Shown: positions 17,480 to 64,000 of the stretch, piece by piece
How positions within the stretch are numbered: the stretch's first letter is position 1
How the letters are laid out: the number at the start of each line of letters is the position of its first letter
DNA from: Catenaria anguillulae PL171
Taxonomy: Eukaryota; Blastocladiomycota; Blastocladiomycetes; Blastocladiales; Catenariaceae
Length of the DNA: 64,000 nt
Assembly: GCA_002102555.1 (NCBI GenBank)
Contig: MCFL01000008.1
Coordinates: 593,269-657,268, forward strand
Direction of reading: 5' to 3'
Translations under genes and position numbers: made by a program
Notes under the pieces: model-generated
Databases searched by the model: none
The model's input: the letters and a program-made list of their open reading frames with translations, nothing else
What the model was told of the DNA's origin: nothing

Positions 17480-19035
17480 ATGAGCAACAAGCCGCGCCAC
17501 AAGCTCAAGAACCCCGCCGTCATCCTCGGTGACCAACCGGCGTCTGCCCCGGCGCAAGTCGACGAAAATGCCCCCAAGCAAGTCCTCGCCCAATTCAAAT
17601 CCAAATCCGACGGTACCCCTGTCGGCCCACCGTGGCGCTTCCCTCATCCGCCACGCCCGCCGACCTCGAACTGCTCCTCAACCAACTGCTCGAAAACCCC
17701 GCCGACGAACCGCTCAAGTATGCCTTCTCAGTGACGTCGGCGACAACCGCGGCAACCATTGACATCTCGACATCGATCGCACACGACCTTCTCTCAAAAT
17801 CCGAGTACGCATCGGGCGAATCGCAGCTTGTCATCGAATACCTGCCGCTCGCCACGTTCCGCGTGCGCGCCGTGACCCGATGCGGGGCCACCATGCCGGG
17901 ACACACAGAAGCCGTGCTCTCTGCTCACTTTGCACCACGCGGCGACGTGGTGGCCACGGGCTCGGGCGACCACACGGTGCGTCTTTGGGACACGGCCACG
18001 GGCACAAGCAAGGCCGTGCTCAAGGCACATGCCGGATGGGTGCTGTGTGTTGCGTGGAGTCCCGATGGTGAATGGATTGCGAGCGGCGGCATGGATGGCA
18101 AAGTGTGCATTTGGAATGCCGCCAGTGCAAAGGGGCAGGCCGTTGCCCCATCGGCCGTGCTCAAGGGCCATTCGGATGCTGTGACCAGTTTGGCGTGGGA
18201 GCCCATGCATTTGGCCGATGGCGGGTATTCACGGTTGGCAAGTGGTGGGCGCGACGCGACCGTGCGCGTGTGGGATGTGCGGACACGCAGGGTCGACTAT
18301 GTTTTGTCGCAGCATACGCGGGCAATTACCTGTGTCAAGTGGGGCGGCGAGGGGTTGATTTACACCGCATCAAGGGATTGCTCCATCAAGGTGTGGGAGG
18401 CCAAGGACGGCAAATTGGTGCGCACATTGGCCGGGCACGGTCATTGGGTCAACACCATGGCCGTGTCGACCGAGCTTGTGCTGCGCACCGGCGCGTACGA
18501 CCACCACCAGGACGGCGGCAGCAGCAAGAGCAAGTCGTGGTCCAAGGAGGAGCAAGTCAAGCGCGCAAAGGAGCGGTATGTCAGTGTGCACAAGGGACCC
18601 GAGCGCATGGTTTCTGGATCCGATGACTTCACCATGTACCTGTGGACACCCGCCACCGCCAAGCAACCCGTCGCGCGCATGACTGGCCACCAGGCGCTCG
18701 TCAACCACGTGCAGTTTTCGCCCTCGGGCGCCAAGATTGCCAGCGCCTCGTTTGACAAGTCTATCAAGATTTGGGATGGATTCACGGGCGGCTTCTTGTT
18801 TGCGTTGCGCGGCCATGTATCGGCCGTGTATCAGGTGGTTTTTAGCGCAGATGAGCGGTTGGTCATGAGTGCAAGCAAAGACTCGACGTGCAAGGTGTGG
18901 GACATGCGGACAAAGAAGCTGAAGAGCGATTTGCCAGGGCATGCCGATGAGGTGTATGCGGCGGATTGGTCGCCAAGTGGCGAGCGGGCCGTGTCGGCGG
19001 GCAAGGATCGGATGGTCAAGGTGTGGTGTCAATAA
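17480..19035 (+). CDS. RSA4: Rsa4/NLE1 ribosome-assembly WD40 protein, with an apparent 1-nt frameshift
   Basis: The ATG at 17480 opens an NLE N-terminal domain (QVLAQFKSKSDGTPVGPP) but that frame breaks near 17626. The expected continuation, VALPSSATPADLELLLNQLL, is in the next frame from about 17629 and runs to the stop at 19035, so one base seems missing in a run of C. No intron of credible size removes the problem. Downstream are eight WD40 blades, e.g. GDHTVRLWD, GMDGKVCIWN, GRDATVRVWD, SRDCSIKVWE, SFDKSIKIWD and SKDSTCKVWD, with the Lys-rich insert typical of Rsa4 before blade 6. Rsa4 binds the AAA ATPase Rea1 through the N-terminal UBL/NLE domain to release pre-60S ribosomes. Because the gene is essential in yeast, an assembly error is the likeliest cause. 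Confidence 0.85.
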
Positions 19036-44835: not shown

Positions 44836-45244
44836 TCTAGTTACCGTCGTTGCTTTCATTCCGTCGCTTGTCGCCTCTGCGTTACCCGCACTGTACATAC
44901 GTGGGCTGTTTAGCGTAATCAATTGTCTGCCCCTTTCACATGCATGTCTGCCGTTCTCATGAATATTCTCCTTTTCCCATGAATGGATGCTTCGATGCAC
45001 CATCAATCCCATCATCTATTTCACTTTTTGCATCCATTGCTGTCTGTATGTACCTACAAGGCGATAGAAATATGTAATATGACCAACAAAAGCGGCAAGG
45101 GCAAGGGCACGGTATCGTGGCGGCCACATGTGTGGCGGCGCTTCGGGAGCACCGTGATCGATGCGGCCGTGACTTCGCGTGAGGAGCAATGACAAGTATG
45201 ATTTGATCTTAACAATCGGAGATCCGACGGACAGAGAAATACAT
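44836..45244. other. Intergenic region, nothing recognised
   Basis: About 400 bp between the chimeric pseudogene and the 131-bp tandem repeats. No family resemblance in any short frame. Confidence 0.4.
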
Positions 45245-45637
45245 CTATACAGGATGGGAAACCCCCAAATGGATTTGGGTCACGCGTGTCACGTTTTTTT
45301 CGTGCGCGGGCCCTCGATCCGCCCTCCCTCTTTCCTTTTGGCCCTGACCTGCTTTGCGATCGGCACTGCAACCTTCTATACAGGATGGGAAACCCCCAAA
45401 TGGATTTGGGTCACGCGTGTCACGTTTTTTTCGTGCGCGGGCCCTCGATCCGCCCTCCCTCTTTCCTTTTGGCCCTGACCTGCTTTGCGATCGGCACTGC
45501 AACCTTCTATACAGGATGGGAAACCCCCAAATGGATTTGGGTCACGCGTGTCACGTTTTTTTCGTGCGCGGGCCCTCGATCCGCCCTCCCTCTTTCCTTT
45601 TGGCCCTGACCTGCTTTGCGATCGGCACTGCAACCTT
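45245..45637. repeat. Three tandem copies of a 131-bp unit
   Basis: Units begin at 45245, 45376 and 45507 (CTATACAGGATGGGAAAC) and are practically identical. Each contains the inverted repeat CCCAAATGGATTTGGG, the palindrome CACGCGTG, a TTTTTTT run, GGGCCC and a pyrimidine-rich tract. Because 131 is not divisible by three and few stops occur, frames on both strands stay open through all copies, giving spurious repetitive ORFs. No spacers between units, so it is not CRISPR-like. Function unknown; a minisatellite or a regulatory array are both possible. Confidence 0.9.
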
Positions 45638-45769
45638 CTGGACGGATGCCTGTCGGCATAATGCTCCCCAATTTTTGCTTTCGCCCCAGCCTTGCAATGA
45701 TACGCACCATGACATGCGCCATGTACCATGAATGAATTGTTAATCTGATTAACCCTCCTGATCGCCGTC

Positions 45770-49134: not shown

Positions 49135-50535
49135 ATGACGACCAACAGTATGCCCAAGAGTACCGTCCGCGGCGGGGTACGTCGTAACGGCCCGAAACCA
49201 AAGCCCAAACCTAAACCCAAGTCCGCAACCGCCGGTAGAGCGGCGCCAACTGGGCGCCTGATCGGCGGGCCGACGTCCAGTTTCAGGGTTTTCTCGTCTG
49301 CTCCTGTGCCTGAGGACCTGTTGAATGGCAATTTAGGGGTGGACTTGGAGGAGGTGACCAGGGCCATGTTTGAGGAGATGCGGTTGGTGCGCGAAGGGGC
49401 CAATGGCGAATCACCTGAGGCGTTCGCTGCGGCCATGGACGTTGCCGCCGCTGCGGCCGAGGGTGCATCAACCGGCGAATCTGTTGCCAACGACAAAGCG
49501 TCGGCTGACACCGACGAGACCAAGGATCAAAGCGTCGACTTGGCTCAAGAAGAGACGTTCTGGAAGTGCGAATCATTTTCGGCCGAGGATATCTCTCCCG
49601 AGTCCATTGCCCTCGGCACCACCACCGACCCCGTCACTGGCCTGCGCCGCACGGCCATTTCCGGTGCAGAACTCATCCTCAAGCACGATCAGGGCCTCCC
49701 CGTTGCGTACTGCCCGCCCGAAAAAGTCGGGCTAGTCATCTCGTACGCGCGCTCCGTCATCGGCAATGCCATCATCTACCACCACTGGACCGACGAATCC
49801 TCGATCCCCGCCGAGCCGGCGCAAGCGTGGGAAGATCAAGTTGACGGGCGCATGCGCGATCGCGCCGCTGCCATTTTCGAGGCACACGGTCCCATGTGCA
49901 ACCACTACGCCAGCCAAGAGGAAGTTGTCGCGTCTGTTCGTTCGTACGCCGCGCTCAGCTGTGCGCAAGAGTACGTGAATGCGAGTGGCCGGTTTTTTCG
50001 TGCCAACTTGCTTGAAATCGCGACGCTTTCGGCAGAAAAGTGTTGGAAGGCTTCGGCTGAGGAAAAGGCGTGGCTCGTGGAGTTTGTAGATGCGTGGATT
50101 CAAGAACATCCGTACCAGTTGCCAGCCGCCGCAAAGCAGGCCGAGTCCCGGGGCCAGGACGACGGCACCAAGAAGGACAACCGCCTGTTTGACTTGATTG
50201 AGCATTTTCGCAAGGGAAGGCGCTGGCCGCGCACGTTGCATGGCAATCGCGTCATGCCATTTGGTGCTCCGGATTTGCTTGACAAGGTCCGGTTTGAGGA
50301 AGGCGAGTCCAAGCGCGCTTGTCTCAGCTGTCGCAAGGAGTTTGATACCAGTCGCGGGTGGAGGGAGCACTTGTTGGTTTCGGCTGAGGAGCACGAGGTG
50401 TACTTGTGTTGCGGGCGCCAATTCGTCGCCCTCGAGGGGGTGATTGAGCATCTCGCCGTCGAGCACAAGGGCAAGTTGGGCATGTTGGAGCCATTCATTT
50501 TGCGCAAGCACCCGTGCATGGACATGTGGGAGTGA
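49135..50535 (+). CDS. Zinc-finger-like family protein Z2 (intact)
   Basis: Single exon, 466 residues. The N-terminus is basic with a KPKPKPKPKS repeat. An acidic/Ala-rich linker follows (about 95-150). The middle helical region contains CPPEKVGLVISYARSVIGNA, MRDRAAAIFEAHGPMC and LSCAQEYVNASGRFFRA. The C-terminal signature is HGNRVMPFGAPDLLDKVRFE, ACLSCRKEFDTSRGWREHLL, EEHEVYLCCGRQF and EHLAVEHKG, ending with LEPFILRKHPCMDMWE. The pattern C-x2-C-x12-H, then CC-x3-F-x8-H-x4-H suggests paired zinc-binding fingers. It is the best-preserved of four local family members and the reference for judging the others. No known family is recognised. Confidence 0.75.
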   Translation: MTTNSMPKSTVRGGVRRNGPKPKPKPKPKSATAGRAAPTGRLIGGPTSSFRVFSSAPVPEDLLNGNLGVDLEEVTRAMFEEMRLVREGANGESPEAFAAAMDVAAAAAEGASTGESVANDKASADTDETKDQSVDLAQEETFWKCESFSAEDISPESIALGTTTDPVTGLRRTAISGAELILKHDQGLPVAYCPPEKVGLVISYARSVIGNAIIYHHWTDESSIPAEPAQAWEDQVDGRMRDRAAAIFEAHGPMCNHYASQEEVVASVRSYAALSCAQEYVNASGRFFRANLLEIATLSAEKCWKASAEEKAWLVEFVDAWIQEHPYQLPAAAKQAESRGQDDGTKKDNRLFDLIEHFRKGRRWPRTLHGNRVMPFGAPDLLDKVRFEEGESKRACLSCRKEFDTSRGWREHLLVSAEEHEVYLCCGRQFVALEGVIEHLAVEHKGKLGMLEPFILRKHPCMDMWE

Positions 50536-50872: not shown

Positions 50873-52269
50873 ATGACCTGCAACGGCAAACCCAAGAGCC
50901 AAGTCCACAGCGGCCAGCGCCGCAATGGGTCAAAGCCCAAGAACAAGCCCACAACCACGGGTACCGGCTCGACCGCTCCAAAGACTCCAGAATGTCCGAC
51001 CCCCCCCTCCCTCAATTAGCTCTGCGACACCACGCGCTCCGCTTCCGCCGTCGCCATCGACACCCGCGGGCCTCTAGTACTATGTCGAGCAAGCGACCAT
51101 GGTGCTGGAAGCGGCACGCAATTTGGCTGGCCGGTTGGGCATGGACGAGATGGTGGTGGCCAGGACCATGTTGGAAGATAGCGATTGTGTGAGATGATGG
51201 GGCCGATGGGCGGCGCAATGGCGCCTGCCGAATCAGCCGAGTCCATGCTTGCAATTGCGTCGAGGATGCGTCGACCATGATTTACGGCGCCAAGGACATG
51301 AACCACGACCATTCGGCCGCTGATGGCGACAATTTAAGCTCAGCGGCTTCAAAGTCAGCGACAAGGTTACTCCCGACTTGCCTAGGGATCCAAGTACCAG
51401 CACCACGCCCGAAGGGTCTCGCTGGGTCTATGACGAACTTGCACCGAACGCCGCCAGCGCCCCCGACGACAACAAGCCCAGTTTTACGATCCCATTCTCG
51501 GAAATCATCATGGTCCAGCAATACTCGATGCCCATTTCCATGTGCCCCGCAGACAAATTGCATCTGGTCATCACTACGTTATCTTCAGCGTATTGACAAG
51601 CATCACGGGTCGACTGCGCCGCCACCACCGAAAGCGTTTCTCGACCCACTCGACCAGCGCGTTCAAGCGCGGGCCATTGCCATGCTCGATGCGCACGGCG
51701 CTCTCACCCGCTGATTTGCCGGCGACCCTCAGATCGCGGCGGCTGACGAAGCGCTTATTGCTGCTACCCTACGCTCAAGAGTGAGTACATGGATGTGGGC
51801 CGACAGTTTGACCGCTGCCGAACGATTCTGCGATGCGTCCAATGCCAAGCAAGCTTGGCTCGTTGAGTTTGTCGACGAATGGGTTCGGGATCACCCGGCC
51901 CAGGTACGGAATGTGGTGCAGGTCGGCGCCATAGACGGCATCAAGAAGGGCGACCACTTGTTGATTTCTTGGAGCATTTCCGCAAGGGGCATGCTTGGCC
52001 ACGCATATTGTACGGCAATCGGGTCATGCCGTTTGGCGTCGCGGATTTGCTTGACAAGACACAGTTTGGCGAGGGCGCGGAATCGGGGGTGCCAAAGGCG
52101 TCACAAGCGGTTTGACACGACTCGCGGATGGAGGGAGCACTTGTTGATTTCGAGGGAGCATGAGGTGTACATGTGTTGCGGCTGGCACTTTGTCTCTCTC
52201 AAGGGGGTGCTCGAGCATCTGTTGCGTGTGCATGCGGCCAAGCTGGACATGCTGGATCCGTTCATTTAG
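50873..52269 (+). pseudogene. Zinc-finger-like family pseudogene Z3
   Basis: The ATG at 50873 opens a basic Asn/Lys/Pro-rich N-terminus like that of Z2, but the frame stops at 51019. Recognisable pieces follow in shifted frames: YSMPISMCPADKLHLVI (51520-51575), RVQARAIAMLDAHGAL (51660-51705), KQAWLVEFVDEWVRDHP (51849-51899), VMPFGVADLLDKTQFGEGAE (52024-52083), then KRFDTTRGWREHLLISREHE and VYMCCGWHFVSLKG to the LDPFI stop at 52269. At least five frame disruptions. Gene order and spacing match Z2, so this is a decayed tandem copy. Confidence 0.8.
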
Positions 52270-52379: not shown

Positions 52380-53777
52380 TCACGCCGCTGGCATCCGGGT
52401 GGCCTCATGGCCGGCCAGCATTAGATGATGGAGACTCTCAGGGGGCCGGCTGCTGGCGCAATGTAAACATAGTGAGAAGTCAATGGAGGACCAGGAAGTA
52501 CAAAGGTCTAAATTATCTAAATGGGACACCCAGTACAATAGCATCGAGAGGTAGAAAGCGACCAGTTGTTGAATAGACTTGAACGGAAACCGATGCAACC
52601 ATGTGACCAGAACTACACCTGCACGCACATCCACTGGTTGCGCACGACTTGCTGGCACAGCTGTTGTGGGCGGCGGGCGTGAGGCTTGAGAAAGCGGCTG
52701 GCGTGCAGGTGCAGCTTTTTTTGCCGCCCTTGCCGCGCTTCGGAAAGATGCTGCCTGCGACGGCGTCGAGTGTGTTGGAGGGGGTGGAGGAGGCCGAGCG
52801 GAAGAAAGCGGTGCCGTCCGGGGTATCAGAAAGCCATGATGATTTGGAAATCCGGCCGCGCGAGGCGTTGCATGTTGTGGTGATGATGATGGTGCATGAT
52901 CTGAAGAGAGGGTTGATGGTGCGGGCGCTGTCGAGGGGGATGATGCATGCCCTGCAATGCTGGATGACTGTGGTGATTGCACCAAAAAGAGCATACCATG
53001 AGTCGATGATTGAATGAGTGGTTGCGCGGGACGAGACGTGTTGATCGCCAAGGCTTGAATCAGAGTGAGTGCATCCGACGCAACACCATTTCAGAAGTAC
53101 CACCAGCTGGCAGTTGTGGGAAACCACCGATCTCTGGAACAAATCGAGTCATGGCGACATGGAGCTTGTTGCGATAGCCTTGATGGACAAAGGCATCAAT
53201 GAGGTCGCGTTCCATGTCTGCCGCGAGCTCCTTGGCGATATGGGTAAGGCGTTTCTGTTGGATATTGGATGAGAACATGGAGGAATTAGTATGAATGCTG
53301 ACCCCGGACAATGATGTGCTATCAATGGTTGTACCACAACGGAGTCCGCCTTCTGGTTGCCCGCTCTGCCTGGTACCAGGTCAAACGCATTCAGCGCAAA
53401 AAGAATGCAGCGCACGCCCTTGATCCGTGATGGCAACGTTGCACGGAATTGGACCCATGTTGGATCAGATTGAAGAAGTGGTGCAAGGCGAAACTGCCGG
53501 GGGCGCATAGCCTGGCACAAAACACGGGATGTGTCGATTGTCATGGAGCTGAAAAGATTGTCAAGTAGTGAAGGAATGTACCATTCTGAAACATGTACGT
53601 CACGAGAATGACGCCCACATCGGGAATTTGTCGCTTTGACCCAAGTGCCACGCGGAGCATCTCGCGGATCTGGAAAATGTCGGCCCCAAAGCCCGCATTG
53701 CTTGACTCTGCCCGTGCCATCGAGTCTGCAACCGTCAGCGTAACCCGTTCAAATGCGTCCCGTGTTGGATAATCCAT
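52380..53777 (-). CDS. Unrecognised four-exon protein with Pro/Ser-rich C-terminal half
   Basis: Exons 53777-53599, 53548-53377, 53254-53101 and 53053-52380 (392 residues). Donors are GTACAT, GTACCA and GTACTT, introns 50, 122 and 47 nt, and phases 2, 0 and 1 all close, which is unlikely by chance. The first 170 residues look folded and helical (DAFERVTLTVADSMARAES, ADIFQIREMLRVALGS, LPSRIKGVRCILFALNAFDL, HIAKELAADMERDLIDAFV). The rest is Ser/Pro/Ala-rich with a PPPPPP run, and ends in a hydrophobic stretch (FYLSMLLYWV). The start may be further upstream: an acceptor-independent frame from an ATG at 54226 could be a 5' exon. Domain not recognised; a cyclin-like fold was considered but not supported. 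Confidence 0.5.
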
Positions 53778-56700
53778 GTTCAAGGCGGGCGTTTTGCGAG
53801 AGCGCCTGCTCGGATCTCTGCAGACGGCGGCCAAGGCCGTAGACTGCGTCTTCAATCCGGGCGAGTGCCGCACCAATGTCGGCTACGCCGCCCGAGTGGT
53901 GTTGCGGGCGGGTGCTGGTCTGGTGGTGGTGTTTTTGCTCATGGGCGAGCCGGCTCATGGTGCTTATGCCAGGTTGCATTTGAGCGGTCGTCGGTGCGGC
54001 CGTGGGCGGCGTGGAGGGGGCTGAGCGGGCGTTGGGTCGGGTGTGGTTGTGCGTGGGCGGTCGGCGGTTTGGGGTTTGGCGGGCTGTGGGAGTTCCGGAA
54101 AGTCGGCAGCTTCGGCTTCTGCACGGGCGGGATTGTTTTAAATGCCGCCCCATGTGGCCGTGGAGGTGGAGGGGAGGTGGTTGCGCTTGATGGTAAAATG
54201 TCGTGCGACTTGTTGGCAGCGTCCATGATGGCCTTGCGTTGTGTGCAAGAGCAGGAGCAGGGAGCAGACACGAGGCAACAGATGACGACGTTATAAGTAG
54301 TAAGGAACTTCGAATGATATGTAATAAAGGGAGCGAGCCGAGAGCCTCGCCGAGAGTTCTCGAGTGAGTGCCGACCTCTCGTGAAGCTTCTGAAGACTGA
54401 AGCGACAAACCACATTGTTGATGTCCGCCGATCCGGTCATGTCTATGTGTCTTGCGCCTCGCCTGCACCAACATTGGAAATATACTTTTGAATGAGCACA
54501 GAGACCACAAGCAAGCCGACATCTGCACCAACACACCCAACCCACTCACCCACCGGTACATACCAACCCCCTCCAACCCCCAAGCCATTATGACGGCGAC
54601 GCGACTCGGAGTGATACGGGCCACAGCAACACAATCCCTCGCCGTCCACACTGCCGCCATCAGTGCCTGTTGGGCGCACATGCCCGCCCGTCTCGTGACT
54701 CTCATCGTTGTCGCCGGCATGGCATGGTGCCCGCCATGGGCAACACCTTTGTTTGGCTTGAGCGTGCGACATAAATCTTGACGTGGCTACAAGGACTAAC
54801 TCGCCAAAGGAGCTGGTGCGGCCGACTGTCCAGATCGACGAGCGAAGAGACAAGATGACGAGCCACATGTTTTGGCGGCGACGCTTGCATGCCTCGTCAA
54901 GTGGATCCGGTCGCGCGGGCAGCAATGCACGGTGTGGCAATGCACGGTGTGGGCGAGCGTGACTGTAGAGGAGATGGTGATTGGGGAAAAGGACGGAAAC
55001 GATTGCACAGCGTCGTCCACACTCTGAGTGCGTTGTAGGTCGTGGTCGTTTAAGGGCCAACACCCGCGATTGCGGCATGGACTGGCAACGAGCAAACGGC
55101 ACCAAATGGCTCCACGGCGGGCGAAAGTTGAGTTGGACGTCAATACGAGCGAGCGAGCGGAAGTTGTGGACAAGGCGTCACTGGCGGTCATGGACATGAT
55201 CACGGATCCTGGCCACGGGTGGGGCTGGCCATGGTCAAGGTGGTGAGCTTGTCAGAGCGAGGGCCGCCAATACGGCGCACGTGCTTGTGTTGCCGTGCTG
55301 CTGCACAAAGACGGTACCGCTCGTGGAATGGGTGCGGCTATTGATGCCGCAAGGAATGCGGTGGAGAATGGTGCGCAGAGCACAACGGCGGCGCACTTGT
55401 GCTGGGGCAAGGCAAACTTGACGCTGGTAAGACACAGATTGCGCACGCAATATTGGTACGTTGTGCTGGACATGGTGCACATGTTGGGCGGGGTGGAGGC
55501 GCAAAAAGGGTTACTTGTTGTTCGCCTAACCTGGCGGCCTGCTTGATTTGGACAGAGGAACGAATGGTCGCTGATACAATAGCGGTTAACGGTCCGCGCA
55601 GAAAGACGTTGCATGTCGATTGTGTTGGGTGGTAGGCTCAAGGGACAGGAGGGAGAACATGTACATGAGAGGGCCGACTGCTAGAGCATGAAGCGAAAAG
55701 GGCCATCGATTTGACAAAGCCTGTCAACGAGTATGTACGGATCCACAGCCTCAATCAGCGGCTGAGGCCATGCCGGTCGCTCAGCTCGATTTGATCGGTA
55801 GGCGACCCGACAACGACGAGGCCAACCAACGAGCCAGGATGACGGGCACCAACATCGACGAGGTGCAAGGTCGCAGCGGAGGAGGCAGAGTGGCTTGACT
55901 GGAGCATGATTGTGCGGCGCTCACGGACCCGAGCACCCGATACTCGATGAGCGAGGGAGAGGGCGGCGGGCGGGCGATTGGGCGGGTTGCGATGTCCCCG
56001 TCAGTCTGACAGGTTACCCTGCTCTGCCCGGCAGTTATGTCGGCGGGCCGGAAGGGACGGCTGGAGGACAGAGCCTATCCTACATGGGCTTCATGGTTCA
56101 TGGAGGGGAACTGAATTGAGCCAGTGGATGTAGGAGAGAGAGGGAGCGAAATGCCAACCGCGAACTGACACGATCACCCCACCAAACCACCAAGGAACAG
56201 CAGTCGCTCCAACATAAATCGATTCGGTAAAGTCATCGATCGTATGTAGACAGAGCCCGGTGCTTTCCACCCGTGCCGCTGGATCCAAGCTTGCTGTTGA
56301 GGCATGGGGCCCTCATCTCAATAGACTTGACGTGGAGGGTGACAGCTGTTGACGGTGGAATATGGACGGCGGGATGCTGGGTTCGTGACCGTGGCATTGG
56401 GCAGTCCTTGGCTGTCAAGGATATGTTGCTCTTGCGGGCGGAGAGAATAGACTGGATCGACCTGGAAAGAAAGCGAGGTGTGTGCCAACGATGTGTGTTG
56501 ATTGGCGACAAGTGACGAGGGAGGGGTTGAAAAAGTCACCGTGGGCTTTCGGGAACATGATATTCGAATTCGGACGGAAAAAAAACGTCGGATACATATT
56601 TTGGAGCATCATTGACAGACATACAGGGCTTCCAAGTGAATGATTGACACGATATACACGAACATTAGCGGTTGTGAACCGCGTCTGGGGGGATATGCCG

Positions 56701-57001
56701 GGTGCTGGCGTAGTTGTCTCACCAACAGCGAAAAAATTGAAGTCCGAAATAAGGATGGGCCTGCGCAGCACGCGTTTGCTCGCGTTTTTTCGCGTTTTCG
56801 ACGCGTTTTTACTGATCAAATCGGCCAGTGTTTCAAAGTTTTTTAACAGCCCATTTCTCAAGGAGAGGTCGGATTGAAAAACGGCTAGTGCCAATCGATA
56901 GAGCGGTTGGGGTATGAGAGTACGACATGGGGGTCAAAAGGGGTATAAAGCATAGAAAAATTCGTCAGGATCACGCGAAGAAAATTCTGAAACATGGACT
57001 T
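53778..57001. other. 3.2-kb region without a resolved gene, left of the tRNA array
   Basis: Open frames here are short, overlapping and unlike known families. A minus-strand frame starting at an ATG at 54226 (MDAANKSHDILPSS, then Pro-rich) may be a leader exon of the gene at 52380-53777. A minus-strand piece near 53850 (IGAALARIEDAVYGLGRRLQ) also looks coding. From about 56,500 the composition becomes A/T-richer, with runs of A and TTTTTCGCG-type repeats near 56780. I see no telomeric repeat. Confidence 0.35.
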
Positions 57002-58669
57002 AGCGTATTTTGTATAATTTGCTAGGAGAGCGTGTGGTGTGTGATGCGTGGGTGAGACTCACACTCACTCATGCAAATGTGGGGTACATACAGTATGTGT
57101 GGACGCAACGCAACGGAAGAATGAAATGCATGCACACCAAGGTACATGCATGTTGTATGTATGTGGTGTGGGCAGCAGATAAATAGGTACAAGTAGAATG
57201 AGCAATGGTTGTGACTTGTGTGTGCGCGATTATGATTTTGTGTTTTGTGGTGGTGTTTTTGACTCAAAACAGGGGTACAATATCAAGCCGGGTAATGAAT
57301 ACAATGCTGTCAAGTATGTATGTGTGTGCCCAAGGTGTGTATGTCATGTGGAAAGAGTGAGAGTGATGTGTGAGAGTCGGGCGCGCGCTTTTTGCGTTAA
57401 AAAAAGTGCCTATAAATTGCCCGTGACCGCTCTGGCGGGTCGAAAACTGTATTCTACGCATGCGATTGTGGTACTGTGAGAATTTGGAGCGGTTTTGATG
57501 AATCCAAGGGGTAGTTTTTGTGGTGAAAGCTCGTGTGGATCGGATCAACATGAGACAGACGCGTCCAAGTAAACATGGTTGAGCGATTCTCTCTCTCTCA
57601 AGTCAGAAACGTGTTGAGAGGAGGGCGATTTATGCAACTCTGACGATGGTATGTTGAGTGCATGTGCAGAATACAGCTTTTTGTTTATTATGAAGTGAGA
57701 ATATCTGACTTGTTTGAGTCGAAATGATGCGAAATGTGCACAGACTGAGTGACATGTTGGCAAACATGAGCTGTTTCTCGGCGTTTTAACTATACAATCA
57801 ATCAGAGAAAAAGCTTCACTCAAATGGTGTTCTACAAAGCGTATTTGTGTACCTACGTAAAGAAACAAAAGTGTTTGTGAGTAGTGTATAATGCATTGGA
57901 TGACAATGACCACATGGTGCTCGTGAAATCAGTGAAATCAGAATCGCGTGTTGCTGATCTGCGAAAACGATGATCGAGCAAAAGCGAGGCCATATGGACG
58001 ATTCTCACTACATGGCGCACTATTCTGACTCGTTGACGTGATAGAGCATGCTCAAATACATAATCTAAATGAATCAAACATGTTCCCATGTGCTCAAAAC
58101 ATGGACCAATCAACCAACGAGTTGGGATTGTCAGAACACAGGACGCGATTTGTTTTTGTTTGGTGGGCAAATGAGCACTCGTTTATGTCGTTTGGAGCAA
58201 ATAAAAGCAGTGTAGAGTGTCACAGAGGGTGGTAACAAGATATAGCTGTATTGAAGTGCCATTTTGGGTAAGCACAAAGTCAGGATCGTCCAGCATTGCA
58301 CATGGATCGATGGATGGACACTTTGACTGATTTGTCACGATTCTTGTTTGGTTGAGCCTTGCTCTTGCTGCTAGACAAGAACAAGAATCATCGCAAACGA
58401 GTGAAATGAGTGAAAGCAAAAGAGAACATAAGTTATTACAGACTGAATGGCCATTGTACTCACAAGAAACTCTCAAACATGCTCAATCACTACATGAAAT
58501 CTAAATGTGTGAGTGGAATTGAGTGCTCTGAGGGACTTTTTCACGGGCCACAGCGTATAAAAGAGGCACAAAATCACTCAAGTGTACCGAAAGGCTGAAA
58601 AGAATGGCCAATAATTGAAAAACTCTCACAGAAATCGACAAAGTCACCTGTTCAAAAAGTGCAAAAAAT

Positions 58670-58741
58670 GGAGAATCCGGGCATCGATCCCGGTGCCTCT
58701 CGCATGCTAAGCGAGCGCTCTGCCACTTGAGCTAATTCCCC
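58670..58741 (-). tRNA. tRNA-Ala (AGC)
   Basis: Cloverleaf on the minus strand: acceptor GGGGAAT/ATTCTCC with one G-U pair, D arm TAGCTCAAGTGG, anticodon loop with AGC, T arm GGGATCGATGCCCG. First tRNA of the array. Confidence 0.9.
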
Positions 58742-58926
58742 GTGCCATTTGAGAGGGGTTTCTGGAGTCTTGGACCGAAAAATGGGTACTCCTTTGCAGT
58801 CTATGCTTTGAACTGGGTGATAAATGATCTCTCCATCCTAATTCACACACAGTCCATACACAGGGGACATGTGCTGCTGCATAGAATGCTCACAATAAAG
58901 GCATTCAAAACAATGAAATCAACAAG

Positions 58927-58998
58927 TCTCCTGTAGTATAGTGGTTAGTATCCGCGCCTGTCACGCGCGAGGCCCGGGTTCGATTCCCGGCGGGAGAG
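58927..58998 (+). tRNA. tRNA-Asp (GTC)
   Basis: Acceptor TCTCCTG/CGGGAGA, D arm TAGTATAGTGGTTAGTA, anticodon GTC in CGCCTGTCACGCG, T arm CCGGGTTCGATTCCCGG. Confidence 0.93.
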
Positions 58999-59060
58999 TA
59001 TCCTTTTTGTTGCTCGAAAAAGTGTAGTTCTTGTAAAGAAAGGGCAAAAAACGTTACAAT

Positions 59061-59132
59061 GCCTCCTAGCAGATTTGAACTGCTGACCTTCCGCTTACTA
59101 GGCGGACGCTCTGCCAACTGAGCTAAGAAGGC
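59061..59132 (-). tRNA. tRNA-Thr (AGT)
   Basis: Acceptor GCCTTCT/AGGAGGC with a G-U pair, D arm TAGCTCAGTTGGCAGAGC, anticodon AGT in CGCCTAGTAAGCG, T arm CAGCAGTTCAAATCTGCT. Confidence 0.9.
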
Positions 59133-59217
59133 TTTCTTGTTTTTGTTCATGTTGAATGGGATCCAGTCCCTATTCCCTCCACTCTGGCTGTGCAAATAGG
59201 AGCAAAAGGCACATGTT

Positions 59218-59299
59218 CCGACCACCCGGATTCGAACCAGGGACCTAAAGATTGCTATATCACTACAGTCTTCCGCTCTACCAACTGAGCTATGGTCGG
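59218..59299 (-). tRNA. tRNA-Tyr (GTA) with short intron
   Basis: Acceptor CCGACCA/TGGTCGG, D arm TAGCTCAGTTGGTAGAGC, anticodon GTA, T arm CTGGTTCGAATCCGG. About 10 extra bases (TGATATAGCA) directly 3' of the anticodon position form a canonical tRNA-Tyr intron. Confidence 0.9.
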
Positions 59300-59511
59300 T
59301 GCTAGCAGATTGTTCATTTTGCATTGTACATGAAGGCGTTGTTGGTCAGCAATGATTCATGTCATGTTAGGTTCTGGCACAGAGTCACAGATGAATTGAA
59401 AAACACATAAATCCTTTGATTTGACAGATGCATTGGCCTTCAAGGAGGCTGTTTCCATTGCAAACTGTCGAGAAAGTTGCATGTTTCCTAAGCAAATCAT
59501 TGAGTTTTACT

Positions 59512-59587
59512 TGTGCACATGTGGGATTTGAACACGAGACTAGAGGATTCTGAAAGCAACAGCTTGAGCAAGTCGACCACGCGCGCA
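59512..59587 (-). pseudogene. Decayed tRNA-Leu (CAG)-like gene
   Basis: The T arm (CGTGTTCAAATCCCACATG) and a TTCAGAA loop are recognisable, but the anticodon stem does not pair and the acceptor ends match poorly. No functional cloverleaf. Confidence 0.5.
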
Positions 59588-59672
59588 TTTTTTGTTTCTC
59601 CAAATTCAACCAGCGCCGCCCAACACCCTAGTGTATGATGCAAACTTGGCAAAGACGTCAAAAAAATTAAAT

Positions 59673-59746
59673 GTCTTCGTGGTGTAGTTGGTTATCACGT
59701 CTGTCTAACACACAGACGGTCTCCAGTTCGAATCTGGACGAAGACA
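59673..59746 (+). tRNA. tRNA-Val (AAC)
   Basis: Acceptor GTCTTCG/CGAAGAC, D arm TGTAGTTGGTTATCA, anticodon AAC in GTCTGTCTAACACACAGAC, T arm CCAGTTCGAATCTGG. Confidence 0.92.
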
Positions 59747-59928
59747 CTCCTTTTACGTTTTTGTTTTGCACCCTCTGTGTATTGCTTTCTTTTCCTAAAT
59801 GTGCAATAACAGATGCTGCTTTTGGGGCGATTGGTGGCACAACAAGATGGTTGGGGTGGATCCAGGCACTTTGTGACCGTGCAAACTGCCCAAAAAGGGT
59901 GGTTTCCTCACCTTTTCTCCCTCTGAAA

Positions 59929-59995
59929 TTTTGTGCTTGGTTATCATGTGTGTCTCACACACAGAGCGCCCTTGGTTCGAACCTAGTGGGCAAAA
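59929..59995 (+). pseudogene. Decayed tRNA-Val (CAC)-like gene
   Basis: The D-arm remnant GCTTGGTTATCATG and a CTCACAC loop align with the intact tRNA-Val(CAC) at 61682, and the T arm is TTGGTTCGAACCTAG. The acceptor and anticodon stems have lost several pairs. Confidence 0.5.
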
Positions 59996-60099
59996 CAAGA
60001 GCTTCAAGCCTGCTCAGGTCTCACCATGTCCATTTGGCGCCCGATTGGTGTCTGAAACATGTCCGTTTGTATCCATTTCAGCAAAAGAAACGCAAAAGA

Positions 60100-60171
60100 G
60101 GGCTGATCCGGGGATTGAACCCGGGACCTCGCACACCCGAAGCGCGAATCATACCACTAGACCAATCAGCC
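60100..60171 (-). tRNA. tRNA-Pro (CGG)
   Basis: Acceptor GGCTGAT/ATCAGCC, D arm TGGTCTAGTGGTATGA, anticodon CGG in CGCTTCGGGTGTGCG, T arm CCGGGTTCAATCCCCGG. Confidence 0.9.
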
Positions 60172-60265
60172 TTTATCTGAATTTGTCCTTGAAAAGACTT
60201 GATCCTGTTTCATTCGGTGGTAGATGACAAGAATGTAGCTTGACCAACTACGTCTTGCAAGAAGA

Positions 60266-60338
60266 GTCACCTTAGCTCAGTTGGGAGAGCGTTAGACTGA
60301 AGATCTAAAGGCCCCGTGTTCAATCCACGGAGGTGACA
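60266..60338 (+). tRNA. tRNA-Phe (GAA)
   Basis: Acceptor GTCACCT/AGGTGAC, D arm TAGCTCAGTTGGGAGAGC, anticodon GAA in TTAGACTGAAGATCTAA, T arm CGTGTTCAATCCACG. Confidence 0.93.
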
Positions 60339-60410
60339 ACTCTTTTGCGACTGTGTTGGTGTTTTAGTGTCACTGCTGATGGAGTAAAAGCGTGCCTTGG
60401 AGAACAAAAG

Positions 60411-60482
60411 GGGCTCGACCGGGGATTGAACCCGGGACCTCTCCCACCCTAAGGGAGAATCATACCACTAGACCATCGAGCC
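60411..60482 (-). tRNA. tRNA-Pro (AGG)
   Basis: Acceptor GGCTCGA/TCGAGCC, same body as tRNA-Pro(CGG) 310 bp away, anticodon AGG in TCTCCCTTAGGGTGGGAGA. Confidence 0.92.
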
Positions 60483-60558
60483 ATTTAATTTTTTCAGTCA
60501 TTGAAATCGTCCACAATCGATCAAATGTCACGCAACACAACGACAGAGGGTAAAAGGA

Positions 60559-60640
60559 TGAGGAGAGTGGGGTTCGAACCCACGCCTCCGAAGAGATCAC
60601 GGCCTTAACGTGACGCCTTAGACCGCTCGGCCATCTCCCC
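60559..60640 (-). tRNA. tRNA-Leu (AAG)
   Basis: Class II tRNA with a long variable arm (ATCTCTTCGGAGGC). Acceptor GGGGAGA/TCTCCTC, D arm TGGCCGAGCGGTCTAAGGC, anticodon stem TCACG/CGTGA around AAG. Confidence 0.9.
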
Positions 60641-60730
60641 ATCTTGTAAACGTGTCCACAACAATCGCTCATGATCCACATTCTTGGTGCTCGTGAACTT
60701 GGCCACCAGAAACTCGCAAATGAAAACAAT

Positions 60731-60812
60731 GACAACGTGCCCGAGTGGTTAAGGGGATTGACTAGAAATCAATTAGGCTCTGCCTGCACAGGTTCAAATC
60801 CTGTCGTTGTCG
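60731..60812 (+). tRNA. tRNA-Ser (AGA)
   Basis: Class II tRNA. Acceptor GACAACG/CGTTGTC, D arm TGCCCGAGTGGTTAAGG, anticodon AGA in ATTGACTAGAAATCAAT, long variable arm, T arm CAGGTTCAAATCCTG. Confidence 0.92.
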
Positions 60813-60910
60813 CTTTCTTTTTCTTTTGGGGCCTGATTCTCTTGATGATGTGCACAGATACAGCATGTGGATGGATCAAAGTCGGTCAAAAAGTGCTTCT
60901 TCACAACAAA

Positions 60911-60982
60911 TCCGCGATGGTCCAGTGGTTAGGATTTCGGTCTCTCACACCGACGGCCGGGGTTCGATTCCCCGTCGCGGAG
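60911..60982 (+). tRNA. tRNA-Glu (CTC)
   Basis: Acceptor TCCGCGA/TCGCGGA, D arm TGGTCCAGTGGTTAGGA, anticodon CTC in TCGGTCTCTCACACCGA, T arm CGGGGTTCGATTCCCCG. Confidence 0.93.
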
Positions 60983-61068
60983 ATGTCCTTTTTTTGATTC
61001 ATTTTCGTGCATGACTGTGCAAAAAAATGCAAGCAAGACAGACACTCAACTCAATGAAAAAGAGAGCT

Positions 61069-61141
61069 TGCGGAGTGGGAGGCTTGAACTCCCGACCTTG
61101 AGATTATGAGACTCACGCTCTACCGACTGAGCTAACTCCGC
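61069..61141 (-). tRNA. tRNA-Met (CAT), elongator type
   Basis: Acceptor GCGGAGT/ACTCCGC, D arm TAGCTCAGTCGGTAGAGC, anticodon CAT in GAGTCTCATAATCTC, T arm GGGAGTTCAAGCCTCCC. The body resembles the elongator rather than the initiator form. Confidence 0.88.
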
Positions 61142-61231
61142 ATCTAGTGCTTCAAGTGATTGCATTGAGTCAACAGTCGCGAGGTAACGCGTGGACAACT
61201 TGGCTCCAACAAATCAAAGTATTTCAAAAAT

Positions 61232-61305
61232 GCTCCAGTGGCGCAATTGGTTAGCGCGTTCGACTGTTAATCGAAAGGATGGTGGTTCGAGTCCACCCTG
61301 GAGCG
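61232..61305 (+). tRNA. tRNA-Asn (GTT)
   Basis: Acceptor GCTCCAG/CTGGAGC, D arm TGGCGCAATTGGTTAGCGC, anticodon GTT in TTCGACTGTTAATCGAA, T arm GGTGGTTCGAGTCCACC. Confidence 0.93.
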
Positions 61306-61510
61306 ACTTTGTTTGTTTTTTGTGTGTTCACATATTCCAGGGGAAAGATTTGCCCATCTTTTTGCAATGTTTTGTGGGCTTTTTGTGCATTTTCTGGCAA
61401 TCTGTGCACCCACAAACAGGTCTAGAAGGCGATAACAGGTGAAGACGCCCTGCTGGAGATGGCAAAAGGGTCCCTCTGGCACAAAAAGACAACAAGACAA
61501 CAAAAAAGAA

Positions 61511-61584
61511 TGGTCCCAGACGGGGTCGAACCGTCGACCTTGGCGTTATTAGCACCACGCTCTAACCGACTGAGCTATGGGACC
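61511..61584 (-). tRNA. tRNA-Ile (AAT)
   Basis: Acceptor GGTCCCA/TGGGACC, D arm TAGCTCAGTCGGTTAGAGC, anticodon AAT in GTGGTGCTAATAACGCC, T arm GACGGTTCGACCCCGTC. Confidence 0.92.
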
Positions 61585-61681
61585 ATGTTACTGCATGGAG
61601 TTCAACAAAGACCTCGTTCCACAGATGACAAGGTCACTGTTTTCATTTTTGGATCGAGTCAAATGACACAAAATTCAAAAT

Positions 61682-61755
61682 GTCTTCGTGGTGTAGTTGG
61701 TTATCACGTGTGCTTCACACGCACAAGGTCTCCAGTTCGAACCTGGACGAAGACA
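61682..61755 (+). tRNA. tRNA-Val (CAC)
   Basis: Same body as tRNA-Val(AAC) at 59673; anticodon CAC in GTGTGCTTCACACGCAC; T arm CCAGTTCGAACCTGG. Confidence 0.92.
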
Positions 61756-61831
61756 AAGTTTTGGTTCTTTTTGGAGTTTGAATGCATTGAGTATCACAAT
61801 AAAAAAAAAGATGTCTTGAAAGACAAAAACT

Positions 61832-61902
61832 TGCATGGTCCGGGAATCGAACCCGGGTCTGCCGCGTGGCAGGCGGCAATTATACCACTAAACCAACCAT
61901 GC
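61832..61902 (-). tRNA. tRNA-Gly (GCC)
   Basis: Acceptor GCATGGT/ACCATGC, D arm TGGTTTAGTGGTATAA, anticodon GCC in GCCGCCTGCCACGCGGC, T arm CCGGGTTCGATTCCCGG. Confidence 0.93.
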
Positions 61903-62034
61903 TTGTTGAGATCCAAGCTCTTTTTGAGATCCATGATGTTCCTTGCACAAGAGCCACAAATGAAAACCTCCACTCAATTGACGTTCAGGGCTGTCTGCAG
62001 TCCAAGAACGGTAACAGAGGCCAGCAAACAACAA

Positions 62035-62107
62035 GCCCGGTTAGCTCAGTCGGTAGAGCGTGAGACTCTTAATCTCAATGTCGTGGGTTCGAGCCCCACA
62101 CTGGGTA
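62035..62107 (+). tRNA. tRNA-Lys (CTT)
   Basis: Acceptor GCCCGGT/ACTGGGT with two wobble pairs, D arm TAGCTCAGTCGGTAGAGC, anticodon CTT in TGAGACTCTTAATCTCA, T arm GTGGGTTCGAGCCCCAC. Confidence 0.92.
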
Positions 62108-62183
62108 CTACATTTTTTTGTGTCCATCTGTTTTGATCCTGTTCAAGTCAACCTGGCTCATGGATTTTCAATTTTTCGAAAAG

Positions 62184-62255
62184 TCCGCATTGGTCCAGTG
62201 GTTAGGATCCCGCGCTTTCACCGCGGTGGCCGGGGTTCGATTCCCCGATGCGGAG
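62184..62255 (+). tRNA. tRNA-Glu (TTC)
   Basis: Acceptor TCCGCAT/ATGCGGA, D arm TGGTCCAGTGGTTAGGA, anticodon TTC in CCGCGCTTTCACCGCGG, T arm CGGGGTTCGATTCCCCG. Last tRNA of the unit. Confidence 0.93.
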
Positions 62256-62669
62256 GTTTTTCTTTTCGTTTTGCTTGATGCATTGTTGTGGTGCTCAAAA
62301 TACAGAGTCTTCACATCAAAATCATTGGCGTTGGACGTTTCTCTATCGTTTTTCTGGCCAAATGAATGCCAAAAGCATGCTGAATCCCCTCATTTGGTGT
62401 GATTTCGTATAGGAATCATCATGACATTTCAGCTGATTCAACTGATTTGCCAATACAATGACAAAAGGGCAAAAATTTGAGGACGACTTGGGTTGTGAGC
62501 ATGGCAAAATTGATGGGATGAGTTCTTTTTGAATTTATCCCATAACTTGTATTGCAGAAATGTGTGGTTTTTGCACCGTTCAAGTGCTATTCATGCGCTT
62601 TTTGGCTGTTTGTGATATCGATCGTGATTCATTCTTTCACAGCAATCAAAGAAATGACGACGTGAGAGG

Positions 62670-64000
62670 AGCGTATTTTGTATAATTTGCTAGGAGAGCG
62701 TGTGGTGTGTGATGCGTGGGTGAGACTCACACTCACTCATGCAAATGTGGGGTACATACAGTATGTGTGGACGCAACGCAACGGAAGAATGAAATGCATG
62801 CACACCAAGGTACATGCATGTTGTATGTATGTGGTGTGGGCAGCAGATAAATAGGTACAAGTAGAATGAGCAATGGTTGTGACTTGTGTGTGCGCGATTA
62901 TGATTTTGTGTTTTGTGGTGGTGTTTTTGACTCAAAACAGGGGTACAATATCAAGCCGGGTAATGAATACAATGCTGTCAAGTATGTATGTGTGTGCCCA
63001 AGGTGTGTATGTCATGTGGAAAGAGTGAGAGTGATGTGTGAGAGTCGGGCGCGCGCTTTTTGCGTTAAAAAAAGTGCCTATAAATTGCCCGTGACCGCTC
63101 TGGCGGGTCGAAAACTGTATTCTACGCATGCGATTGTGGTACTGTGAGAATTTGGAGCGGTTTTGATGAATCCAAGGGGTAGTTTTTGTGGTGAAAGCTC
63201 GTGTGGATCGGATCAACATGAGACAGACGCGTCCAAGTAAACATGGTTGAGCGATTCTCTCTCTCTCAAGTCAGAAACGTGTTGAGAGGAGGGCGATTTA
63301 TGCAACTCTGACGATGGTATGTTGAGTGCATGTGCAGAATACAGCTTTTTGTTTATTATGAAGTGAGAATATCTGACTTGTTTGAGTCGAAATGATGCGA
63401 AATGTGCACAGACTGAGTGACATGTTGGCAAACATGAGCTGTTTCTCGGCGTTTTAACTATACAATCAATCAGAGAAAAAGCTTCACTCAAATGGTGTTC
63501 TACAAAGCGTATTTGTGTACCTACGTAAAGAAACAAAAGTGTTTGTGAGTAGTGTATAATGCATTGGATGACAATGACCACATGGTGCTCGTGAAATCAG
63601 TGAAATCAGAATCGCGTGTTGCTGATCTGCGAAAACGATGATCGAGCAAAAGCGAGGCCATATGGACGATTCTCACTACATGGCGCACTATTCTGACTCG
63701 TTGACGTGATAGAGCATGCTCAAATACATAATCTAAATGAATCAAACATGTTCCCATGTGCTCAAAACATGGACCAATCAACCAACGAGTTGGGATTGTC
63801 AGAACACAGGACGCGATTTGTTTTTGTTTGGTGGGCAAATGAGCACTCGTTTATGTCGTTTGGAGCAAATAAAAGCAGTGTAGAGTGTCACAGAGGGTGG
63901 TAACAAGATATAGCTGTATTGAAGTGCCATTTTGGGTAAGCACAAAGTCAGGATCGTCCAGCATTGCACATGGATCGATGGATGGACACTTTGACTGATT
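62670..64000. repeat. Tandem tRNA-array unit 2 (left part only)
   Basis: 1,331 bp that match 57002-58332 base for base wherever compared; every open frame in one copy has an identical twin 5,668 bp away. The window ends before the first tRNA of this unit. Confidence 0.92.

Follow-up and report, generated by a model that had tools for sequence, protein, structure and literature searches.

The genome of the fungus Catenaria anguillulae PL171 contains a tandem array of mixed transfer RNA (tRNA) genes, which reaches the end of the stretch of DNA analyzed here. This window of 64,000 nucleotides (nt) comprises bases 593269-657268 and forms the terminal part of the 657,268-base pair (bp) contig C436. 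Labels of this type refer to the contigs of the genome assembly searched, which holds 41.07 Mb in 457 contigs. We consider it likely, with a probability of about 0.78, that this is a functional tandem array organized like ribosomal DNA (rDNA), that its units are homogenized through gene conversion or unequal exchange, and that it represents the only source found for 16 of its 18 tRNAs.

The array unit

The full unit of 5,668 bp covers window positions 57002-62669 (forward strand) and contains 18 tRNA genes with 18 anticodons for 15 amino acids. Nine genes lie on each strand, every anticodon occurs once, and all of them are packed in 3,587 bp (58669-62255). The next unit begins at 62670 in the same orientation, and its first 1,331 bp (62670-64000) are 100% identical to 57002-58332, which gives a period of 5,668 bp. 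Since the end of the window is also the end of the contig, this second copy was cut by the assembly. Judged from the sequence, an exact repeat of 1.3 kb is no chance match. A preliminary description of the window had already proposed this period, the unchanged recurrence at 62670 and 18 intact tRNA genes for 15 amino acids on both strands of 3.6 kb, and all of this was reproduced.

ARAGORN predicted 17 tRNAs at 58669-62255, Rfam with relaxed filters found all 18 including the one at 59217-59299, and a faster Rfam scan recovered 16 of 18. In all 18 genes, four or more T in a row, read as terminator, begin at most 10 nt from the 3' end. On the forward strand are encoded tRNA-Asp(GTC) at 58927-58998, tRNA-Val(AAC) at 59673-59747, tRNA-Phe(GAA) at 60266-60338, tRNA-Ser(AGA) at 60731-60813, tRNA-Glu(CTC) at 60911-60982, tRNA-Asn(GTT) at 61231-61307, tRNA-Val(CAC) at 61681-61756, tRNA-Lys(CTT) at 62035-62108 and tRNA-Glu(TTC) at 62184-62255. 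The reverse strand carries tRNA-Ala(AGC) at 58669-58741, tRNA-Thr(AGT) at 59060-59132, tRNA-Pro(CGG) at 60100-60171, tRNA-Pro(AGG) at 60410-60482, tRNA-Leu(AAG) at 60556-60641, tRNA-Met(CAT), by its sequence of the elongator type, at 61068-61142, tRNA-Ile(AAT) at 61510-61585 and tRNA-Gly(GCC) at 61832-61902. All of these were recognized by ARAGORN as well as by Rfam. The remaining reverse-strand gene at 59217-59299, which was obtained with Rfam, is in our reading probably tRNA-Tyr(GTA) with a 10-nt intron, whereas the intron mode of ARAGORN labels it as Asp. Arg, Cys, Gln, His and Trp tRNAs are missing from the unit, as had been stated before.

The array genes for tRNA-Met(CAT) and tRNA-Lys(CTT) resemble each other (87% over 63 nt); a change of the anticodon may have produced one of them from its counterpart, or the two may have been subject to mutual conversion. 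The array tRNAs would serve 58.5% of the 6,181 codons in 11 hand-picked open reading frames (ORFs), if it is assumed that inosine reads C and U; this share was calculated without a control and is not used as evidence.

The tRNA-free part of the unit (57002-58668, together with 62256-62669 a total of 2,081 bp) has a GC content of 42% compared to 51-62% in 2-kb steps of window positions 1-56000. It shows no Rfam family over its cut-off, and the longest ORF in 57002-58668, the part covered by the ORF listing, has 122 codons for amino acids. In the whole unit the tRNAs alone reach the Rfam cut-off and no other RNA family does so; the matches below it are Plastid-ycf2 and mascRNA over tRNA genes and one sR12 snoRNA with an E value of 0.46.

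Array units on other contigs

Genome-wide matches to the unit are confined to the three contigs C436, C341 and C178. On C436, 1.23 units extend up to the contig end; C341 (17,121 bp) is array throughout with approximately 3.0 consecutive units; C178 (34,163 bp) consists of non-array DNA to approximately 18.2 kb, followed by about 2.8 units up to the contig end. The assembled array thus amounts to approximately 40.1 kb with about 7.1 units and 122 tRNA genes, namely 115 predicted by ARAGORN plus 7 Tyr genes (4 by the ARAGORN intron mode, 3 inferred from the alignment). The true unit number is probably higher, because each of the three contigs breaks off within the array. Different tRNA genes are combined in each unit and the units follow each other head-to-tail on C341 and C178, so that the tandem reiteration proposed earlier was borne out and is not limited to a single unit. 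Dispersed tRNA-headed copies, as expected from a tRNA-derived transposable element (short interspersed nuclear element), were not found among the genome-wide matches, since the unit occurs on the three array contigs only.

The first two copies on C341 (4,952 and 5,668 bp, 10.6 kb in all) show no difference to the window unit. Near-uniform units are accordingly seen on C341, and a divergent variant stands at the array edge on C178. It is very improbable that the array is an assembly artefact, i.e. one locus duplicated by the assembler or represented by two haplotypes. Such an origin would be in line with the fact that all three array contigs stop inside the array and with the identity of the first two C341 copies to the window unit. 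However, C341 holds about three units and nothing else, no second haplotype was found for the array flank on C436 in a search in which 12 of 12 candidates were scored, and on C178 a unit with 119 mismatches lies directly beside one with a single difference. This close neighborhood of a divergent and a near-identical unit implies at least two real adjacent units.

Selection and homogenization at the array edge

The outermost unit on C178 has diverged from the window unit. In a MAFFT alignment with the window unit it shows 119 mismatches and 115 gap columns (99 mismatches according to BLAST, counted from unit position 32 on), but the 18 tRNA genes (1,356 sites) are free of both mismatches and gaps. 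It must be mentioned that 593 of these sites fall in a stretch that is identical throughout and is therefore uninformative. In the informative part (58669-60910), 0 of 763 tRNA sites are mismatched compared to 59 of 1,457 spacer sites, a difference with P = 1.5e-11 in Fisher's test, which omits gap columns. From 60911 to the unit end, in contrast, not a single difference occurs over 1,759 bp. An abrupt change of this kind would be the expected trace of a boundary of recombination or conversion at the edge of the array. Together, the invariant tRNAs within diverged spacers and the sharp identity boundary argue for purifying selection plus homogenization, which supports the earlier assumption of a recent amplification or an active homogenization of the array.

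Are the array tRNA genes found elsewhere?

By similarity search of the assembly, no copy outside the array was found for 16 of the 18 array tRNA genes. The two queries, window 60860-62300 (8 tRNAs, 20 of 20 candidates scored) and 58600-60520 (8 tRNAs, 14 of 14 scored), matched the array contigs alone, plus relatives with 74-82% identity. Relatives of the Lys gene (80-82%) are located on C246, C248, C334, C15, C124 and C431, and all except that on C124 were read as Lys-TTT; the Thr region gave one weak match of 74% on C447.

Outside the array we counted at least 65 tRNA genes with 15 anticodons, none of them an array anticodon except Met-CAT. These are Arg-ACG (9), Ser-CGA, Gln-CTG and His-GTG (6 each), Lys-TTT and Arg-CCT (5 each), Cys-GCA, Leu-CAA, Met-CAT and Gln-TTG (4 each), Thr-TGT, Ala-CGC and Ala-TGC (3 each), Leu-CAG (2) and Arg-TCG (1). 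A further 15 genes beyond the 65 on C133, C167 and C319 (Leu-CAA, Gln-TTG, Cys-GCA, Ala-CGC and Arg-ACG, three times each) include no array anticodon either. The non-array genes were collected through their resemblance to known clusters and from the top Rfam hits (best 63 of 1,333 candidates), which does not amount to a full census. Two of the outside Met genes (C319:2950-3021 and C45:30983-31056) have A1-U72 and GATCGA in the T arm instead of TTC, features which we take to mark the initiator type, whereas the array Met gene is of the elongator type. The third (C45:39050) lies in a 99.96%-identical inverted arm, and the fourth (C319:1265-1354) is a 90-nt prediction with no Rfam listing over the cut-off. 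In eukaryotes, Asn, Asp, Phe and Tyr are each served by one isoacceptor. Given that no outside copies appeared, the array is the sole source found for these four.

Several observations weigh against the assumption of a uniform array that is the exclusive source of its tRNAs. Ser-AGA has relatives with 88-94% identity elsewhere (those read are Ser-CGA) and Leu-AAG has relatives with approximately 84% (the one read, on C45, is Leu-CAG). Since these relatives exist and the search covering both genes scored the best 40 of 50 candidates, exclusivity is not claimed for them. Moreover, diverged copies may escape a similarity search, which also passes over words of very high frequency, and some loci may be absent from the assembly. 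The figure of about 7.1 units is as assembled, and the contigs could overlap, which would lower the true minimum. Finally, the units are not all identical to the window unit: the third copy on C341 has 26 differences (10 substitutions) and its terminal piece 35 in 847 bp, while units 2 and 3 on C178 have 1 and 6 differences, respectively. Many of these differences are indels beside short runs and near contig ends, which possibly reflect assembly error.

Nevertheless, a functional array remains the reading we prefer. A composite unit of 18 genes for RNA polymerase III (Pol III), one per tRNA species, would provide all of them at equal dosage, and unequal exchange or gene conversion could keep the head-to-tail units alike. 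The array would then serve to supply a core set of tRNAs at high and balanced dosage. We infer that the array genes are transcribed and that exchange is the homogenizing process. The preliminary description also named putative roles as copy-number buffer, Pol III hub and chromosome-end or boundary DNA.

tRNA genes outside the array

The tRNAs for Arg, Cys, Gln and His and the initiator tRNA-Met, which have no place in the unit, are present in dispersed loci. Outside mixed clusters (His, Leu, Met, Gln, Arg, Ser, Cys, Ala) are often arranged as inverted repeats around cores of 2-5 kb. Inverted pairs were read on C45 (30001-40000; arms 2,665 bp, 99.96% identical, core approximately 4.6 kb), C165 (13501-22000; 3,236 bp, 99.97%, approximately 2.0 kb), C456 (33001-43000; 2,565 bp, 99.92%, approximately 4.8 kb) and C13 (471501-477000; 566 bp, 99.82%, approximately 3.1 kb). 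The arm lengths are those within the stretches compared, and the arms may extend further. C13 holds a second pair, by coordinates at approximately 518.5-529.6 kb. Lys-TTT, Ala-TGC, Thr-TGT, Arg-CCT and Arg-TCG were read as short single stretches. The suggestion that the tRNAs missing from the unit reside in a second array therefore fails in its form: the genes for Arg, Cys, Gln and His tRNAs are scattered over clusters, and several of these are inverted pairs of nearly identical sequence, so that part of the remaining tRNA set is likewise kept as near-identical copies. A gene for tRNA-Trp was seen neither in the array nor among the outside genes counted, which are no full census.

By analogy, the inverted clusters resemble palindrome-type gene conversion or the centromere layout of fission yeast, but two inverted pairs on C13 argue against all pairs being centromeres. 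On two further contigs, tRNA genes with the same Rfam score lie at a distance of 15.6 kb, at positions 18438 and 34025 of C128 and 29197 and 44803 of C279, and the first of each was read as Cys. The C128 and C279 stretches are approximately 97% identical over 7.1 kb and contain a long ORF, by eye an IMP dehydrogenase.

Array flanks and chromosome ends

The DNA next to the array (54207-57001) is piecewise homologous to the array flank on C178, with approximately 81-98% identity of the single pieces. From 54207 on, the two flanks are 80-92% identical per 350-bp window if gaps are excluded, and the homology is interrupted by a stretch of approximately 6.9 kb on C178 without counterpart. Beyond these homologous flanks, C436 and C178 show no match. 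The search with the C436 flank gave the C178 flank, a dispersed repeat just outside the flank (52460-53790; approximately 90% identical on C1, C113 and C334) and weak matches in the vicinity on C436. Both assembled array edges run from flank to array in one direction, and no opposite edge was detected among the genome matches to the unit on the three contigs.

Same-facing edges raise the question whether the arrays form chromosome ends or subtelomeres, i.e. whether they are chromosome-structural DNA with tRNA output as a secondary aspect. We regard this as unlikely, even though the two edges have homologous flanks and none of the three contigs with unit matches shows the opposite edge. In line with such a role, the exact telomere tract (TTAGGG)4 is absent from the whole 41-Mb assembly, and sequences with up to 3 mismatches to it occur 10 times, fewer than for the reversed control (48). 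On the other hand, this absence may reflect a limit of the assembly or a different telomere motif, and none of the contigs joins the array to a terminus. Furthermore, the strict conservation of the tRNA genes would be needless in purely structural DNA. The other end of C178 also speaks against such a role, since its first 3.77 kb recur within C335 with an identity of 100% (rounded): C178:1-3769 corresponds to C335:183608-187377 in reverse, and the first 3,684 bases are 95% identical to C335:210373-214027. As the left end of C178 matches C335 twice, it represents either a repeat or a junction introduced by the assembly.

The same edges would also be expected if C436 and C178 were the two arms of one inverted locus, a centromere or boundary element comparable to the tRNA clusters of fission yeast, and the other tRNA clusters of this genome are indeed near-identical inverted repeats with cores of 2-5 kb. 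We find this explanation improbable. The assembled array consists of direct repeats and not of inverted repeats around a core as in fission yeast. Its flanks differ by approximately 8-20% per 350-bp window, compared to 0.18% in one of the four inverted pairs read and less than 0.1% in the other three, and the 576-kb contig C13 alone carries two such pairs. In addition, the centromeric tRNAs of Schizosaccharomyces also occur outside centromeres (PMC6538654), whereas 16 of the 18 tRNAs were found here in the array only.

A more far-reaching and rather doubtful idea combines these aspects. The tRNA arrays would be the chromosome termini (flank, units, end), unequal exchange between arrays would replace TTAGGG telomeres, and the remaining tRNAs would be kept uniform by conversion in inverted pairs, so that the upkeep of tRNA genes and that of chromosomes would form one recombination system.

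Comparison with known tRNA arrays

Fungal tRNA genes are mostly regarded as dispersed. Among animals, Xenopus laevis reportedly has a 3.18-kb tandem tDNA repeat with 8 tRNA genes, a long composite unit with fewer genes than found here.

Entamoeba has been put forward as the best known example of tandem units of different tRNA genes, and it remains the nearest famous case, though not the sole one. Each Entamoeba species has 20-26 array types that contain almost all tRNA genes, and the largest unit (2,364 bp) comprises 6 tRNAs plus 5S (PMC2652664). Mixed tRNA genes per tandem unit, units that are mostly uniform within a genome, AT-rich spacers and a division into arrayed and dispersed tRNAs (there only few are dispersed) are shared with the array of C. 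anguillulae. In contrast to Entamoeba, only one array type was found here, its unit of 5,668 bp holds 18 tRNAs without 5S, and with the at least 65 genes outside the array it does not apply that almost all tRNA genes are arrayed. Short tandem repeats between the genes, which are described for E. histolytica and E. dispar only (PMC2652664), are also lacking, as TRF gave no entry inside 57002-64000. The function of the Entamoeba arrays was called obscure, and a role as chromosome ends was proposed but could not be tested there at that time (PMC2652664).

A survey from 2010 stated that tRNA tandem repeats had been reported solely in Entamoeba until then, and found that large tDNA clusters arose independently in other groups (PMC2888827). 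The human locus 1q23.3 likewise has a long unit (7.3 kb, 9-43 copies per allele) in which different tRNA genes occupy both strands, but it contains 5 tRNAs per unit, is GC-rich and binds CTCF, and human tRNA genes are widespread elsewhere (PMC4041453). In Phytophthora infestans, many of the approximately eight thousand tRNA genes are organized in monomeric to trimeric arrays and about two-thirds of the tRNA families are located on a single chromosome (PMC9584435). The units of its monomeric arrays are near-identical with variants often near one edge, similar to our findings; however, P. infestans is an oomycete and not a fungus, its units contain 1-3 tRNAs (513 and 850 nt are quoted), and its dimeric and trimeric arrays are more diverse than the monomeric ones (PMC9584435). 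The SYY (Ser-Tyr-Tyr) cluster of Arabidopsis is also a tandem mixed tRNA unit, but with two tRNA types, silenced in most tissues and accompanied by dispersed Tyr genes (PMC12308677).

With regard to fungi, the centromeres of Schizosaccharomyces harbor 17 tRNA genes that serve 14 amino acids, none of them unique to centromeres; they are grouped in clusters with no more than 8 genes, and these clusters are placed among centromere repeats and do not form one long direct-repeat unit (PMC6538654). Dimeric and trimeric tRNA arrays are described as infrequent in fungi, with reference to dimeric precursors in S. pombe (PMC9584435), which means that smaller fungal precedents exist. Hence, the initial statement that there is no common fungal example holds in so far as such arrays are infrequent, but they are not absent. 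Among the matches listed in our literature search, no tandem array of mixed tRNA genes was reported from a fungus, subscription papers being outside the scope of this search. Tandem mixed arrays as such are already known, and the present one is notable for its 18 genes per unit, its apparent exclusivity and its fungal host. Its unit has more tRNA genes than any tandem unit compared here.

If the array genes are truly the only copies, the fungus would depend on one recombining array for a set of tRNAs that includes those for Asn, Asp, Phe and Tyr. The locus would then offer a natural test of tRNA dosage by array length, of concerted evolution of Pol III genes and of tRNA arrays as chromosome ends. 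In an assembly, loci of this kind can be collapsed or cut, which was the case here at the end of the window.

Additional observations

5S rRNA genes recur approximately every 13.5 kb, with four copies on C437, where one match is weak and partial, and two on C219. This periodicity probably marks a putative rDNA repeat with linked 5S, in a stretch that is partly N. In the window itself, an ORF at 17632-19035 matches a protein of C. anguillulae PL171 with 100% identity over 94% of the ORF length, followed by hits in Allomyces, Blastocladiella (two), Sorochytrium and Paraphysoderma, which belong to the Blastocladiomycota. A 131-bp tandem repeat with three perfect copies is located at 45244-45639. 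Furthermore, stretches of 82 and 72 nt at 50224-50382 and 51996-52152 recur 1.77 kb apart with 76-78% identity and probably belong to neighboring paralogous genes.

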